Source: Pseudobdellovibrionaceae bacterium
GTDB taxonomy: Bacteria > Bdellovibrionota > Bdellovibrionia > Bdellovibrionales > Bdellovibrionaceae
Length of the DNA: 64,000 nucleotides
Assembly: GCA_030158485.1 (NCBI GenBank)
Contig: JAOASS010000003.1
Location: 1 to 64,000 of the forward strand
Reading direction: 5' to 3'
Positions within the stretch are counted from its first letter, which is position 1. Each line of letters opens with the position of its first letter. This document shows positions 19,063 to 50,311 of the stretch, one piece after another. Made by a program: the position numbers and the translations under genes. The notes under the pieces were generated by a model. It was not told the DNA's origin, ran no database searches, and worked only from the letters and a program-made list of their open reading frames with translations.

Positions 19063-19764
19063 TCAGTGAGCGCGTTTTTGTCTGACAAAACTAGGTTTGC
19101 GGTCAGCGGGAATCGGGGACTCTTCAAACTCGTTCAGTGTCAGGCCTAAACCGGACTGAACGAGTCGGGCTTTAAATGCAGGGTGCCCAACGATTTCATA
19201 AAAAGCTTTCCAAGATAATTTTCGGTCCGGTGAATTTGTAGGAACGGAAAGTCCCCAAACATCCAAATCAGAAAGTGACGAGCTCAGGCTTTTCCAAAAA
19301 AGTGCTAAATAAACTTTTTCCCAATCCTGCTTTCTAAAATCCGCAGCCAAAAAAGAAAAAAGTGGAACCCTGATTCGGGCTTTTTCCAAAAGCGAAACTT
19401 GATTGAGCTGTTGCATTCTTTTATGTTCGATCAGAAGTAAATGAGCCCCATGGCCCGTAACTGTTTTAATTTCCCAATCTGTAGGCTCATCGATCACGAT
19501 AATATTAAGATTCCAATCTTGGAATTTGAGGTCTTTAAAAATTTTGGCTAAATCATCTGACTCTGTATACAGAATCACATTTTGAGCATCACTTTCCCAA
19601 ATACGGAAGGATCCAGAGGGTGAAGTCGAGCCTAGATAAAATCCCCAAGTTCCTAAAATCAAGAGGAACAGAGTCCAACTTAAAAACTCCAAAGGAATTT
19701 TTTTAAATCCTTCGGAGTTTAAAGTTTTTAAAGAAAATAAAAGCTTTTTAAAAAGCCTCGTCAA
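19063..19764 (-). CDS. Hypothetical membrane-anchored protein at the end of the nrd operon
   Basis: About 233 residues with one N-terminal transmembrane helix (LEFLSWTLFLLILGTWGFYL) and a soluble domain likely outside the cytoplasm. The sequence WGLSVPTNSPDRKLSWKAF faintly recalls periplasmic solute-binding proteins, but I cannot assign it. The frame goes up to 19815, deep inside nrdB; a TTG at 19764 with AGG upstream leaves a 17-nt overlap and is more natural. Co-transcription with nrdAB is likely, which makes its function worth a look. Confidence 0.6.
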   Translation of the reverse strand: MTRLFKKLLFSLKTLNSEGFKKIPLEFLSWTLFLLILGTWGFYLGSTSPSGSFRIWESDAQNVILYTESDDLAKIFKDLKFQDWNLNIIVIDEPTDWEIKTVTGHGAHLLLIEHKRMQQLNQVSLLEKARIRVPLFSFLAADFRKQDWEKVYLALFWKSLSSSLSDLDVWGLSVPTNSPDRKLSWKAFYEIVGHPAFKARLVQSGLGLTLNEFEESPIPADRKPSFVRQKRAH

Positions 19765-20746
19765 AACTAACCTGGCCCGTGACTCCGACTTGATAAGCTG
19801 AAACTCTTCTTTCAAAGAAATTGGTCAGCTCTTGCGCGTCTTGTAGTTCCATAAAGCCGAAGGGATTTTTAACATTGTAGCGGGGAGTGATGCTCAAGCT
19901 TTCAAGTCTCATGTCGGCCACGTATTCTAAGTACTGTCGCATATCTTTAATTGAAAGTCCTGCGACTCCCATTTGCAAAATATCTTCAGCAAAAGCCATT
20001 TCGCATTCAATCGCTTCTTCGATCATTTGTGTGATCATTTCATTCATTTGTTCATTAAAAAGTTCGGGTTCTTCTGTTCGAGCAACACGGATCACTTCAG
20101 ATGCAAAAGCAATGTGCATGCTTTCGTCTCTGAAAACCCAATTGGTTCCTGCTGCTAATCCCGCAAGAAGTCCTTTGGATCTTAAAAAGTAAACGTAAGC
20201 AAAAGCCGCAAAGAAAAACAGTCCTTCAATACAAGTGGCAAAACAAGCCATGTTCATAATGAATCGACGGCGATCTTCTAAAGTATTTAATTCGTTCAGT
20301 TCGTTAATTGAATCCATCCACTTAAAGCAAAACTGGGCCTTTTTTTGGATCGAAGGAATATTTTCAATAGCCGAAAAAGCTTTTGCCCTTTCATCTGGAT
20401 GCGGGATGTAATTGTCTAATAGTGTAAGATAAAATTGAACGTGCAAAGCTTCTTCGTAAAGTTGGCGACTTAAATAAAGTCGAGCTTCAGGTGAATTAAC
20501 GTGTTTATAAAGATTAAGAACAAGATTGTTCCCAACAATTGAATCACCAGTTGCAAAAAAAGCCACCAAGCGCGCGATTAAATGTTTTTCACTTGGGGAC
20601 AGTTTTTGATTTAAGTCGACAAGGTCTGTTGAGAAATCAACTTCATCAACAGTCCAAGTATTTTTAATCCCGTTTTTATACATTTCGAAAAAAATAGGAT
20701 ATTTCATAGGTCTTAAAGTGAGATTAAATCCAGGGCTGAGTATCAT
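19748..20746 (-). CDS. nrdB: Ribonucleoside-diphosphate reductase, beta subunit (class Ia)
   Basis: A 332-residue radical-generating subunit of aerobic ribonucleotide reductase. Iron ligands are seen in ATGDSIVGNN (Asp), EEALH (Glu, His) and, later, ECEMAF and FRDESMH. The radical Tyr is present four residues after the first ligand His (HVQFY), so the classical tyrosyl-radical chemistry is expected. An AAAGGA precedes the ATG. It follows nrdA by 21 nt in the same operon. Confidence 0.95.
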   Translation of the reverse strand: MILSPGFNLTLRPMKYPIFFEMYKNGIKNTWTVDEVDFSTDLVDLNQKLSPSEKHLIARLVAFFATGDSIVGNNLVLNLYKHVNSPEARLYLSRQLYEEALHVQFYLTLLDNYIPHPDERAKAFSAIENIPSIQKKAQFCFKWMDSINELNELNTLEDRRRFIMNMACFATCIEGLFFFAAFAYVYFLRSKGLLAGLAAGTNWVFRDESMHIAFASEVIRVARTEEPELFNEQMNEMITQMIEEAIECEMAFAEDILQMGVAGLSIKDMRQYLEYVADMRLESLSITPRYNVKNPFGFMELQDAQELTNFFERRVSAYQVGVTGQVSFDEAF

Positions 20747-46043: not shown

Positions 46044-46613
46044 CTACGACAGTTTAATGTTCTTTAAGACAGCAAAAGGGTTGGGTTTTTCATCGACCAT
46101 CGCTTCATCGTAGCCAAAATTGTGAGTCTTCTGGTTTAGCCCGCAGGTTCGGCAGTCGCCTTTTTCGTTGGTATCGGGCATGGGATTAAATGGAATTGTA
46201 ATGCCGATAGCTTCGTGAACGTAAGCCCCCATGTCGAATTGATGATTTTCAGGGTATTCCAAAGCTTGGGGTCCCGTATTGCTTTCTGCGTCAGATAAAT
46301 GGTTTACTTTTGCGTAATGACCTTTACGTTCAGAAGATTGCTGGGGAATCAAAATTTCATTCATTTTAATATGAACAGGCATTTTAAAATCAAGCCCACA
46401 AAGTGAGCAATCTGTCGGAAGCTGGGCCGTGATGGTACCAGTCATCATGTAGTCGCGGTTGTTAATCGGTTTAATATAAAATTGGGCTTCGTATTTTTGA
46501 TCTTGAACAAAGTCTTCAAGGGCTTTGTTGAGTTCTGAAGTTTCGCGGGTCCAAACGTAATTTTTACCTTCTTCAGGAATTTCCGAGAGGCGAATAACGG
46601 GAGTGATTTTCAT
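46044..46613 (-). CDS. yceD: DUF177 (YceD-like) protein
   Basis: A 189-residue member of the DUF177 family, genetically linked to L32 and implicated in 23S rRNA maturation in other organisms. The cysteine pairs CSLCGLDF and CRTCGLNQ are typical; some members bind zinc there. AAGGA precedes the ATG. First gene of the rpmF-fab operon; the promoter should lie in 46614-46731. Confidence 0.88.
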   Translation of the reverse strand: MKITPVIRLSEIPEEGKNYVWTRETSELNKALEDFVQDQKYEAQFYIKPINNRDYMMTGTITAQLPTDCSLCGLDFKMPVHIKMNEILIPQQSSERKGHYAKVNHLSDAESNTGPQALEYPENHQFDMGAYVHEAIGITIPFNPMPDTNEKGDCRTCGLNQKTHNFGYDEAMVDEKPNPFAVLKNIKLS

Positions 46614-46731: not shown

Positions 46732-47661
46732 TTATTCGAATATAAAGTATTGGTCTTTTGCGACTAAGGGGTTTTTAAGAATTTTCAAGTCGACTAAAGT
46801 TTGGATCAGGTTTTGCCACCGGGTTTCCGACATGCTGCCGATGTTTTGAAAGTCTAAATTCTGGGGTTGAATTAAGGGCATTTGAATCGTGGCACTTTTA
46901 TTAAAAGTCGCCAAATCCAGAGTTTTATTTAAAGTGGCCATTTTCTGATTCGTCAGCTCGGGATTTTTTAAATAATCCTGCCAACCTTTTTTAAAAACTT
47001 GTACAAGTTTTTTGATTTCGGATTTCTTCAGTGGATTATCAAGATCGGACTTTCTAACGGCAACCACGGTCGTATAGGGGTTAAATCCTTCATCTGCTAT
47101 TAGAAAAGTGGAAACGGGTATTCCTTGTTTTTCCGCAAGTAAAGGTTCAGAAGTGATGAAGCCTTGCTGGGTGTAATTCTTTTCATGAATCAAGCTTGAA
47201 ATTCCCCCAACGTAGGGAACCCATTTAACTTTTGAATGGGGATATTTTTTCTTTAAAAATTGAACATAAGTCAAACCGGATTGGGCAGCGATGGTTCCGG
47301 GGTTATTCATAATTTCAGAAATTGAATTTAATCTTCGATCTTTTTTGGTGATCCAGACTTGCGGATTTGTTTGAAAAACAGCGAAAACTCCGACCACAGG
47401 ATTTTTTGGATTTTTTTCGTTTGAAATCAGAATCTCTTCGGCGCTGACAATGGCAAAATCCACTTTTTTAAAGCTGAGCATTTGAATCGTTGGCGTGCCT
47501 GATCCCCCTTCCATGATTTCAAACGAAACTTCACGGCTCAGAAGAGCTTGGTAGAACCCCCCGAATTGAGGTTCAGCTTTCCAATTCAGTGCCATTCGGG
47601 TTTGAGCTGAAGCTGTGCTAAAAAAAAAGAAACTTAATAAAGAAAGAAAAAGTTTTTTCAT
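46732..47661 (-). CDS. ABC transporter substrate-binding protein (NMT1/ThiY-like)
   Basis: A 309-residue periplasmic protein with signal peptide (MKKLFLSLLSFFFFSTASAQ). The N-terminus LNWKAEPQFGGFYQAL is typical of the NMT1/THI5-like family, whose members bind pyrimidine precursors of thiamine, sulfonates or nitrate. VDFAIVSAEEIL and VWITKKD continue the pattern. It ends an operon and overlaps the permease gene by 4 nt. Ligand unknown. Confidence 0.87.
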   Translation of the reverse strand: MKKLFLSLLSFFFFSTASAQTRMALNWKAEPQFGGFYQALLSREVSFEIMEGGSGTPTIQMLSFKKVDFAIVSAEEILISNEKNPKNPVVGVFAVFQTNPQVWITKKDRRLNSISEIMNNPGTIAAQSGLTYVQFLKKKYPHSKVKWVPYVGGISSLIHEKNYTQQGFITSEPLLAEKQGIPVSTFLIADEGFNPYTTVVAVRKSDLDNPLKKSEIKKLVQVFKKGWQDYLKNPELTNQKMATLNKTLDLATFNKSATIQMPLIQPQNLDFQNIGSMSETRWQNLIQTLVDLKILKNPLVAKDQYFIFE

Positions 47662-48416
47662 CGGAATTCCTCTGAGTAAGAACCATAAGGTCTTATTTTA
47701 TGAATTAATAAAAAAATCATTTTAAGAAGATAAAGTCCCACAAGGCCTAATAGGGCTAGCAACAGGAGGCTTGCGAAAACGCGGTCGACTCGTTGTTGAG
47801 TTCGAGCGGAATCAATAATTGATCCGAGTCCGCCTCCGGCCACAAATTCGCCAGCAACAGTGCCAATAATCGAAAGACCGATCGCGACTTTAAGCCCTGA
47901 ATAAAGTGATAAAAAAGCAGAAGGGAGTCGCAGTTTAATTAAAATTTGCCATTTTGAAGCCCCGTAAAGTTGAAATAGTTCAAGTTTTTCTTTTTCAATA
48001 TTTTCTAAGCCTAAAAGAAAACTGGCTAAGACGGGAAAAAATGAAACAATCGCTGAAGCGGCGATAACAGTGGGAAGACCAAAACCAAAATAAATTACAA
48101 GCAGCGGAGCAATCGCAATAATCGGTACGGTTTGAAAAAAAATAGCAAGCGGAAGAAACGCGTTTTTAAGCGGGGTTGATAAAATTAAAATAAAAGCGGC
48201 CAGAATTCCAAAGCTCAAGCTGATGAGATGTCCCGCCAGAGTTGCTTTTGCAGTTTGTAGAAAAGCGTCTTGCCATTCAAGAGGAGTTTCAAGGAAAGAA
48301 TTAAAAACTTCGTGCGGGGGTGGAAATAAGCTGGTGGGTAAAAAACCCAAAGCAGAAAAAAATTCCCAAGAAATAATAATCAAGACACACAAAATTAAAA
48401 AAGGTCGATTCGTCAT
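47658..48416 (-). CDS. ABC transporter permease (SsuC/TauC/ThiX type)
   Basis: A 252-residue inner-membrane permease with about six helices. The coupling loop ELFQLYGASKWQILIKLRLP, with conserved EAA-type Gly, matches the BPD_transp family used by sulfonate, taurine, nitrate and HMP importers. Overlaps at both ends (4 nt each) place it between the ATPase and the binding protein. Confidence 0.9.
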   Translation of the reverse strand: MTNRPFLILCVLIIISWEFFSALGFLPTSLFPPPHEVFNSFLETPLEWQDAFLQTAKATLAGHLISLSFGILAAFILILSTPLKNAFLPLAIFFQTVPIIAIAPLLVIYFGFGLPTVIAASAIVSFFPVLASFLLGLENIEKEKLELFQLYGASKWQILIKLRLPSAFLSLYSGLKVAIGLSIIGTVAGEFVAGGGLGSIIDSARTQQRVDRVFASLLLLALLGLVGLYLLKMIFLLIHKIRPYGSYSEEFR

Positions 48417-49102
48417 AAAAAGCTGCCTCGAACTTTTGTTTTTAAAGAAGCAAGTTGGGTTGCCGAATCTTGATTTCGATCAACTTGAAAGATTTCAGGG
48501 TCAAGCTCACCCCGTTTTTTGAAACAATAGATTTCATCCGCGACACTCAGGGCTTCGCTTAAGTGATGGGTCACAAAAAAACAGGTTCTAGAGCTTTTTA
48601 AAATATAATCTCGTAAGTATTTTTGTAAGTTTTCACGGGTGACTTCATCTAAAGCGGCGAAAGGTTCATCACAGAAAAGCACTTCGGGGTTTAAAACAAA
48701 AGCCCGCGCTAGGCTAGCCCGCATTTTCATCCCGCCAGAGAGTTCTTGCGGAAAAAGAGAACTTGAATCTTCAAGGCCTACGTCTTTTAAAGCTTTTTGA
48801 ACAGCTTCGGGGTTGAAAAGATTTTTAAGTTCTAAGCTTAAATTCACGTTTTCAAAAGTGTTTCTCCAGTTCAGAAGATGACTTTCTTGAAAAATAAAAC
48901 CTTGTTTTAATCCAATCGGCCTTTGAACTAAACCTGAATCGGGTGGTTGTAAGCCTGCAAGTAATCGAATCAACGTAGACTTACCGCAACCACTGGGCCC
49001 TAGTAACGCAATCACACCAGGACCTTTAAATTGGAAATTCAGGTTTTCAAAAAGAATTTTATTTTTGAATCGAAGGTGAACTTCTTGGAATGAAAAAATC
49101 AC
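48413..49102 (-). CDS. ABC transporter ATP-binding protein
   Basis: A 229-residue ATPase with Walker A GPSGCGKST, signature LSGGMKMRASLARA, Walker B VLFCDEPFAALDE and the switch His in FFVTHHLSEA. It is closest in style to SsuB/TauB/ThiZ ATPases. It overlaps the oxygenase gene upstream and the permease downstream by 4 nt, so all four genes are translated together. Confidence 0.93.
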   Translation of the reverse strand: MIFSFQEVHLRFKNKILFENLNFQFKGPGVIALLGPSGCGKSTLIRLLAGLQPPDSGLVQRPIGLKQGFIFQESHLLNWRNTFENVNLSLELKNLFNPEAVQKALKDVGLEDSSSLFPQELSGGMKMRASLARAFVLNPEVLFCDEPFAALDEVTRENLQKYLRDYILKSSRTCFFVTHHLSEALSVADEIYCFKKRGELDPEIFQVDRNQDSATQLASLKTKVRGSFL

Positions 49103-49746
49103 GAACGGATCCAGTCGTAATTAAAGCTGACGCTGATACGTTCTTCAGCTGCAGGATTCGGAGCCACTTGGTGCTTCATCCAGCTTTCAAATAAAACGAT
49201 ATCGCCGACTTTGGGTTTGATTTCGAGGTGCATTTGGTGGTTTGATTTTTTTGTTTTTCTGGGAGGACACGCCATCATCAAAACAGCCCGGGGGTCTTCA
49301 AATTGGATACCTGAAGAACTTAAGGGCACTTGTAAATAAAAAGTTCCACTGATGACAGACAGTGGATGGTGATGAAAACTGTGACTGGTGCCTTGGGGCA
49401 TAATGTTGATCCATAAAGTCGAGACTTTTAAATCGGGCGGTGAAAAATCCCATTGCAAAGATCGAGCATATTTTAAAACGTGGGGCCTGATCATTTTTTC
49501 TAATTTTTCAAAAGAAGAAGAAAAGCGGTGCAATTGATCGAAAGACTGCGAAGTGGAACTGTAAGAAGTGTAGCCACCCCAGTAGTTTTTTTGGCTCCAT
49601 TTTTGGCCTTCTAAATCCACTTTTCGAATTTGCGCTACTTCTTTTAAAAGTTCTTGGTAAAAGAAAGGAAGGCGTTGGGGCGTCTTTTTTGAAGCCGTGA
49701 TGAGTTGCTTAATGTAAAGGGAACTTTCAAAAACTTTTTTAATCAT
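49099..49746 (-). CDS. Putative 2-oxoglutarate/Fe(II) oxygenase (TIGR02466 type)
   Basis: A 215-residue protein with the jelly-roll pattern of the 2OG-Fe(II) oxygenase superfamily: SHSFHHHPLSVISGTFYL holds the first His, VLFESWMKHQV the distal His, and ERISVSFNYDW the Arg for 2-oxoglutarate. It heads an ABC importer operon, which hints that it acts on the imported compound, as TauD does for taurine; but it is not of the TauD family. GTG 49767 is possible, but ATG 49746 follows a leaderless-type promoter by 7 nt. Confidence 0.78.
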   Translation of the reverse strand: MIKKVFESSLYIKQLITASKKTPQRLPFFYQELLKEVAQIRKVDLEGQKWSQKNYWGGYTSYSSTSQSFDQLHRFSSSFEKLEKMIRPHVLKYARSLQWDFSPPDLKVSTLWINIMPQGTSHSFHHHPLSVISGTFYLQVPLSSSGIQFEDPRAVLMMACPPRKTKKSNHQMHLEIKPKVGDIVLFESWMKHQVAPNPAAEERISVSFNYDWIRS

Positions 49747-49753
49747 AGACGCA

Positions 49754-49783
49754 AGTTTAGCTGGCACTGGACTGAGAACACAA
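49754..49783 (-). promoter_or_regulatory. Leaderless-type promoter of the oxygenase-ABC operon
   Basis: On the minus strand TTGTGT (49778-49783), an 18-nt spacer and TAAACT (49754-49759) end 7 nt before ATG 49746. The in-frame GTG 49767 would lie inside the spacer. Confidence 0.4.
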
Positions 49784-49945: not shown

Positions 49946-50311
49946 ATGAAAAATGCATTCGAATCAATTTTAAGTTCTGTAACAAATTGGGTTGCGAGTC
50001 TTTTATTGATCCTCACGGCTTCTGTTTCATTTGCTAAAGTTTCGGATTTCCATTCTTTGATCACGGATAATATATCGGCTCAGAATGAGCTTCATGGACA
50101 AGTTCAAAAACAAATGAAAGTGACTCGCGAGAGTTTGAACCCTGGTCCTGCCTCTTCTTTAGTTGTCGAGTCCGATCAAACTCAAATTAATTCACCGACT
50201 TCTCAAAAAATGCTTCGTTACCGCAAAGAAGCTGGAACTAAATCAGTGCCTCAGAAGAAACAGTTGGACCGCTTGTCTCAAGAGTTTAATGACGCAAGCT
50301 TCGCCAATTAA
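49946..50311 (+). CDS. Small exported hypothetical protein
   Basis: A 121-residue protein with a signal peptide whose core is VASLLLILTASVSFA. The mature part is polar, Gln/Ser-rich and has no Cys or known motif. AGGAG precedes ATG 49946. It stands alone between the oxygenase operon and the dehydrogenase. Function unknown; probably periplasmic. Confidence 0.7.
   Translation: MKNAFESILSSVTNWVASLLLILTASVSFAKVSDFHSLITDNISAQNELHGQVQKQMKVTRESLNPGPASSLVVESDQTQINSPTSQKMLRYRKEAGTKSVPQKKQLDRLSQEFNDASFAN

Follow-up and report, generated by a model that had tools for sequence, protein, structure and literature searches.

An oxygenase–importer operon of the Bdellovibrio family as a possible union of two separately inherited modules

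A 64,000-nucleotide stretch of DNA from a Pseudobdellovibrionaceae bacterium (assembly GCA_030158485.1, contig JAOASS010000003.1, positions 1 to 64,000; hereafter the window), which belongs to contig 3 (genome size 2.48 Mb), carries a four-gene operon in which an oxygenase of the TIGR02466 family precedes the ATPase, permease and substrate-binding protein of an ATP-binding cassette (ABC) importer. An ABC importer and an oxygenase also share one operon in tauABCD, and the locus raises the question of whether the oxygenase acts on the compound that the importer brings in. Our analysis tilts, by somewhat better than an even chance, towards another answer, namely that two separately inherited modules share the operon: an importer whose binding protein has a thiamin-binding fold, and an oxygenase with a prolyl-hydroxylase fold and an HxH motif, whose genomic company is more that of translation than of transport.

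The operon and its separable halves

All four genes lie on the minus strand. Their order is oxygenase, ATPase, permease, binding protein, and every junction is an overlap of 4 nucleotides (nt), just as a preliminary description of this DNA had it. The oxygenase comprises 215 amino acids (aa; positions 49099–49746, ATG start, with a possible alternative GTG start upstream at 49767), the ATPase 229 aa (48413–49102, GTG start), the permease 252 aa (47658–48416, ATG start) and the binding protein 309 aa (46732–47661, ATG start). The gene identities proposed earlier also hold, as the oxygenase scores 198 bits for TIGR02466 (cut-off 62.5) and 105.6 for PF13759 (cut-off 27), the binding protein matches the NMT1 family (PF09084) with 58.3 bits against 20.5, and the ATPase and permease match PF00005 (ABC_tran) and PF00528 (BPD_transp_1) above their cut-offs; the best NCBIfam matches of the permease (SaoP, SsuC and TauC) are weak and all far below cut-off. 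The oxygenase is the single TIGR02466 match in its genome. With a signal-like stretch at the N-terminus of the binding protein, from which secretion is predicted, the set of parts for a binding-protein-dependent importer is complete.

The operon thus exists as described, its annotation is correct, and it is conserved. All four genes are present in this order in 19 of the 37 family genomes, the window's own included; the same order, with proteins 64–68% identical, is found in 'Bdellovibrionales bacterium isolate clean509', the same operon occurs in Bdellovibrio bacteriovorus strain kdesi (L085), and in locus L039 three open reading frames (ORFs) intervene before the binding protein. Of 59 relatives, 42 have the oxygenase and 31 the binding protein. 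In 19/19 scored loci the ATPase has a possible start codon between −4 and +5 nt from the oxygenase stop, with additional start options at −10 in L049 and −53 in L042 (the scoring left out the linked loci L044 and L046, and a false pair in L070 was dropped). As the gene order recurs in 19 of 37 family genomes and this junction is nearly constant, the arrangement reflects more than chance, and we infer that the genes are co-transcribed. Matches to consensus promoters numbered 4 against 9.1 expected in shuffles and were uninformative.

Each half of the operon is also found without the other. The oxygenase alone is present in 8 of the 37 family genomes (G001, G004, G012, G023, G026, G028, G031 and G034), of which G001 belongs to the window's own genus and G026 is 54% complete, and the importer alone in two (G019 and G024). 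Neither is found in three (G009, G016 and G018, the last with a 22-bit oxygenase match that was not counted as presence), and the other five (G005, G010, G017, G022 and G027) hold both genes with linkage left partial or open by contig ends or separate contigs, the oxygenase and ATPase being adjacent in G005 and G010. At seven loci (L035, L045, L054, L061, L062, L066 and L070) the oxygenase stands directly upstream of yceD, the gene that follows the operon in the window, with no importer between them, while at two others, L229 (G024) and L230 (G128), the importer stands upstream of yceD without the oxygenase; in G234 a solo oxygenase occupies the family-type site and the importer lies on another contig. 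That one site can lose the importer or the oxygenase disfavours the reading of the operon as one pathway. Linked and solo genomes are mixed in the oxygenase tree, the best tree requiring three changes between the two states (3–5 in bootstraps); since well-supported branches force just one change, any count of the losses is provisional.

Without the oxygenase the importer is widespread. The best 80 of 273 importer loci, several of them cut at contig ends, come by record title from Halieaceae, Acidobacteriota, Planctomycetota, Myxococcota and Bdellovibrionota, and 19 of these 80 have the oxygenase next door. A strong oxygenase match is found in 0/29 importer genomes titled outside Bdellovibrionota, one of which has a weak match of 33.9 bits, and among 48 oxygenase loci away from the family-type site not one has this importer as its neighbour. 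In L213 the importer lies 3.4 kb from the oxygenase, and in L191 the oxygenase adjoins the ABC ATPases of another transporter. The survey of other genomes suggested in the preliminary description has recovered the direct linkage within the family but not beyond the family-type site, and the situation that it had named as contrary to its own proposal, an oxygenase living mainly away from transporters, is found in part, both at these 48 loci and in the eight family genomes with a solo oxygenase.

In the window the binding protein is followed on the same strand by yceD (46044–46613, PF02620), then by rpmF for ribosomal protein L32 (45733–45921, translation recognised by eye), which lies between yceD and fabH. 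The fatty-acid genes fabH, fabD and fabG, also assigned by eye, are located downstream as well. Upstream of the operon are a divergent plus-strand gene whose small product (121 aa) begins with a signal-like stretch (49946–50311; cluster c5, found beside the oxygenase in 20 of 40 family loci) and a leucine dehydrogenase gene identified by eye from its translation. In many relatives, though not in the window, a short tyrosine-recombinase-like gene is located near the oxygenase (cluster c1, whose 24 ORFs come from 22 of 40 loci, L035–L071); its product of ∼178 aa ends, by eye, near RHTFA...LGH...Y. A record titled Streptomyces griseus (L089, CALQIT020000085.1) carries the genes for leucine dehydrogenase, the small divergent protein, the oxygenase and the importer in the order seen in the Bdellovibrio family, and probably has a wrong title or derives from a contaminated bin. 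On contig 196 of G102/G223 (19648–20227) stop codons interrupt the oxygenase match while the importer is kept, which is possibly a decaying gene. Another loose association with a transporter is seen on a Limimaricola variabilis plasmid (L184), where genes for an ABC importer and an Ldh-family oxidoreductase are followed, after ∼1.4 kb, by a distant relative of TIGR02466 (29% identity).

The oxygenase and its genomic company

The TIGR02466 family is spread across Bdellovibrionota, Pseudomonadota, Streptomyces plasmids and 238 phage records, mostly of cyanophages. In the portions of the literature that our search returned, no function is assigned to TIGR02466, PF13759 or the structures 2rg4 and 3bvc; there TIGR02466 appears in lists of cyanophage genes, while PF13759, by number or by name, figures in a viral phylogeny (PMC10598087). 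The model of the window protein (mean predicted local distance difference test score, pLDDT, 87.5; 21 sequences) adopts the double-stranded β-helix fold shared by 2-oxoglutarate (2OG) Fe(II) oxygenases. Its nearest structures are the structural-genomics entries 2rg4 and 3bvc (Z-scores 23.1 and 23.0; ∼40% identity over 186 residues), members of the same family that contain the same HxHP...DPR...H...R pattern, which can also be recognised by eye in a cyanophage homologue; these come from Roseobacter-type bacteria, whereas the window oxygenase leads an importer operon. The predicted fold further resembles, over its whole length and in the position of the C-terminal H...R, the hypoxia-inducible factor prolyl hydroxylase PHD2 (Z-score 16.6, 3.1 Å over 175 residues) and the Pseudomonas putida prolyl 4-hydroxylase (Z-score 15.6), although identity is 14% and the window protein has His in place of the Asp of HxD.

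Other 2OG oxygenases carry HxD, H and R at matching places in the strands. In an alignment of 104 rows (103 and the window; some genomes appear twice), H125 and H127 are invariant in 104/104, as is D151, while H192 is found in 103/103 and R203, 11 residues beyond it, in 102/102 of the rows with a letter at those positions. In the model H125 and H127 follow strand 122–125, H192 lies in strand 191–194 and R203 opens strand 203–212. The absence of iron ligands, which the preliminary description had considered damaging to its proposal, is therefore partial: both His of the HxD/E...H triad and the Arg for 2OG are kept, but the carboxylate position is His in all 104 rows. Judged from the model, His appears to have taken the place of the usual carboxylate ligand; H127 is placed on the HxD Asp by a weak profile alignment (probability 0.4%) in which the motif columns align, and R203 is the putative 2OG-binding Arg. 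The protein may use iron and 2OG, and in view of the HxH pattern the automatic label '2OG-Fe(II) oxygenase' is one to be tested, not assumed. At one locus (L068:4999–6572) an HxD-type PF13640 oxygenase lies directly upstream of an HxH-type TIGR02466 protein, so that two unrelated 2OG-type oxygenases are adjacent.

The company kept by the oxygenase was read in Pseudomonadota, where 31 of 249 genomes match its profile, 25 of them strongly, and all 25 of the latter neighbourhoods were inspected. GC-rich loci yielded long antisense ORFs lacking a Pfam match (4 of 10 proteins checked), and the ribosomal genes were therefore remapped by tblastn with Escherichia coli proteins. In 12 of the 25 loci the oxygenase is located in the S10 operon, in the gap from rplP to rpmC, with seven of the oxygenases in the direction of the operon. 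In three of the 25 it follows pth, with ychF further on; a Sphingomonas plasmid has a similar arrangement, its pth and oxygenase genes overlapping by 4 nt. At L204 the oxygenase shares 4 nt with a gene whose product has a class II aminoacyl-tRNA-synthetase domain, at the Bdellovibrionota locus L216 it begins 9 nt after rsgA, and in the window's family it is upstream of yceD-rpmF. The position of the oxygenase beside ribosomal or translation genes in unrelated clades, and upstream of yceD-rpmF where the importer is lacking, suggests a target in the translation machinery, hinting that the oxygenase is a translation-linked protein hydroxylase. The hydroxylation of ribosomal proteins by unrelated oxygenases is established. 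At loci L190–L201 and L203 the gap between rplP and rpmC contains, in addition to the oxygenase, extra sequence that varies and genes that point either way, and resembles a hot spot for insertions within the ribosomal operon.

Several observations weigh against a role in translation. The remaining five oxygenases at S10 loci are opposed to the operon, and there are loci with no translation link, namely L191 (an ABC ATPase pair, Liv-type or other, and a chromate transporter), L209 (aldehyde dehydrogenase), L189 (DSP phosphatase), L222 (MsrA), and L202 and L205 (no family); of the neighbour families tested, ten have no translation theme. It is probable that the 15 Pseudomonadota loci with a translation link stem from few clades, and their tally, made after the oxygenase loci had been chosen, has no background control. 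The oxygenase is also found in 11 of 13 genomes with PF08007 (the JmjC ribosomal-oxygenase type, YcfD/NO66). Replacement of RoxA/YcfD by the oxygenase was considered and rejected, as the complementarity with PF08007 that it predicts is not seen. A common neighbour was likewise sought for the solo oxygenases of Bdellovibrionota, and their neighbours (Ppx-GppA, TldD/PmbA, SMC-like, DUF4421, 2OG oxygenase, radical SAM, RsgA and MsrA) show no theme except RsgA.

The importer and its ligand

The model of the binding protein (mean pLDDT 95.0; 57 sequences) is closest to the thiamin-bound structure 4nmy (Z-score 29.2, 3.5 Å over 282 residues) and to formylaminopyrimidine-bound 3ix1 (Z-score 29.0, 3.6 Å over 284 residues), followed by Thi5 (∼25), SsuA (22.6), PqqT (20.0) and TauA (19.2). 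A profile search also puts 4nmy first (E-value 2.2e-20), and W27, E172 and Y196, which align with W, E and Y of 3ix1, are invariant in the 57 sequences, as are G52, G53, G55 and P57 of a Gly-rich GGSGTPT loop. E172 may correspond to the pyrimidine-recognising Glu192 of ThiY. The binding protein has no NCBIfam match of note, and weak matches to SsuA_fam are seen in 14 of 17 homologues. Fold, NMT1 family, the three-gene ABC layout and the W27/E172/Y196 positions are thus shared with ThiXYZ and 4nmy, whereas identity to ThiY-type and thiamin binders is 15–19% overall (18–19% to 4nmy), an oxygenase stands in front, and neither ThiE nor ThiC nor a thiamin pyrophosphate (TPP) riboswitch was found.

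The NMT1/ThiY-like character assigned to this protein in the preliminary description is borne out by fold and family, but the salvage of a precursor that it brought to mind is not. ThiC, ThiE (PF02581) and TPK were not found in the window's own genome, which makes ThiY-type use of a precursor unlikely, and formylaminopyrimidine salvage was rejected since no match to ThiE was seen there; among the 59 relatives ThiC, ThiE and TPK are above cut-off in 2, 3 and 3, respectively. Intact or phosphorylated thiamin could serve instead as the imported ligand. It is conceivable that this is the whole story, with the importer feeding thiamin, thiamin monophosphate or TPP to a thiamin-auxotrophic predator and the oxygenase being a passenger. 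We regard this as the best-placed of the alternatives, and as a tentative one. It agrees with the thiamin-bound structure as closest solved relative and with the failure to find ThiC, ThiE and TPK, and thiamine synthesis is also reported as incomplete in a metabolic model of B. bacteriovorus (PMC7529429).

On the other side, identity to 4nmy is low, the window gave no Rfam match at all and hence no TPP riboswitch, and 11 homologous importer loci gave five Rfam matches, none of them a riboswitch. ThiC is present in 19 of the 29 importer genomes of other phyla, which argues that the importer is not tied to the loss of ThiC, and at least seven high-completeness genomes of our set f1 have neither importer nor ThiC and therefore need another route to thiamin anyway. 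The riboswitch result and the presence of ThiC elsewhere also count against thiamin as the ligand within the two-module reading that we prefer. The genomic context does not name the substrate, because the neighbours of the importer vary by clade (glutathione peroxidase, PTPS proteins, patatin, amidase and others), and a search for a common neighbour, made with Pfam on three sets of 10 neighbour proteins, yielded no constant partner. PTPS-domain genes precede the importer in L138 (two) and L137 (one), and a pair lies on the opposite strand in L118; two divergent PTPS copies side by side, as in L118 and L138, are unusual.

One pathway or two

A pathway in which the importer brings in a compound that the oxygenase cleaves or hydroxylates, resembling tauABCD in function with an unrelated oxygenase family, was the proposal of the preliminary description, and we now consider it doubtful, below thiamin supply alone. 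The tight linkage within the family speaks for it. The order is kept in the 19 family genomes, and the near-invariant oxygenase–ATPase junction is tighter and more constant than that between permease and binding protein, a contrast that does not favour two independent modules. Nor does the co-occurrence of the two across the phylum beyond the linked loci. For 191 phylum genomes minus 29 of the window's family, and with weak matches dropped before counting (importer 30–65 bits, oxygenase 27–36 bits), 17 genomes have both, six have just the importer, 20 have just the oxygenase and the remaining 119 have neither of them (one-sided Fisher p = 1.6e-8, uncorrected for phylogeny); the same counts by genus are 6, 5, 13 and 86 (p = 0.0033, likewise uncorrected). 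Among the 17 with both is G102, with its oxygenase match broken by stop codons, and in G088 (L107/L213) the two are loosely linked, the oxygenase lying on the importer's strand and 3.4 kb downstream of it. Such co-occurrence could stem from a shared lifestyle.

Against a joint pathway stand the occurrence of both single-module states at the same site, the lack of a strong oxygenase match in all 29 importer genomes of other phyla, and the 48 oxygenase loci outside the family-type site, none of which adjoins the importer. The likeness to tauABCD is also limited to the layout. As the preliminary description had stated, the oxygenase belongs to a family other than that of TauD, since it has no match to PF02668 at E-values up to 0.1, and homology to tauABCD was rejected on this ground; the binding protein, moreover, is nearer to ThiY than to TauA. 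Least probable by far is an importer of pterin or another pteridine, in which a ThiY-type pocket would take a larger aminopyrimidine, suggested by the PTPS-domain genes that precede the importer in one Bdellovibrionota clade; the neighbours differ in every other clade examined and no PTPS-type genes adjoin the window operon.

If the operon does combine two separately inherited modules, the secreted NMT1/ThiY-fold protein would capture a small nutrient, probably aromatic or heteroaromatic, for which thiamin or phosphorylated thiamin from prey is our leading guess, and a single permease and ATPase would bring it into the cell. The cytoplasmic oxygenase, with its prolyl-hydroxylase-like fold, probably would not act on the imported compound and may instead hydroxylate a protein of the translation machinery, the two modules being co-expressed in the Bdellovibrio family. 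A more ambitious version, improbable as a whole, is that TIGR02466 proteins are three-His oxygenases of prolyl-hydroxylase fold that hydroxylate the translation machinery, with uL16 or a neighbouring ribosomal protein as first candidate, and are unrelated in sequence to the JmjC ribosomal oxygenases; co-expression with a vitamin importer in Bdellovibrio would then let ribosome tuning and the uptake of prey nutrients rise together.

For the TIGR02466 family, the recurrent ribosomal neighbourhood offers a first concrete list of targets. The locus also illustrates that perfect overlaps and conservation throughout a family do not make an operon one pathway. An importer of thiamin or thiamin phosphates, if that is what it proves to be, would account for the supply of cofactor from prey in predators in which ThiC, ThiE and TPK are not found.

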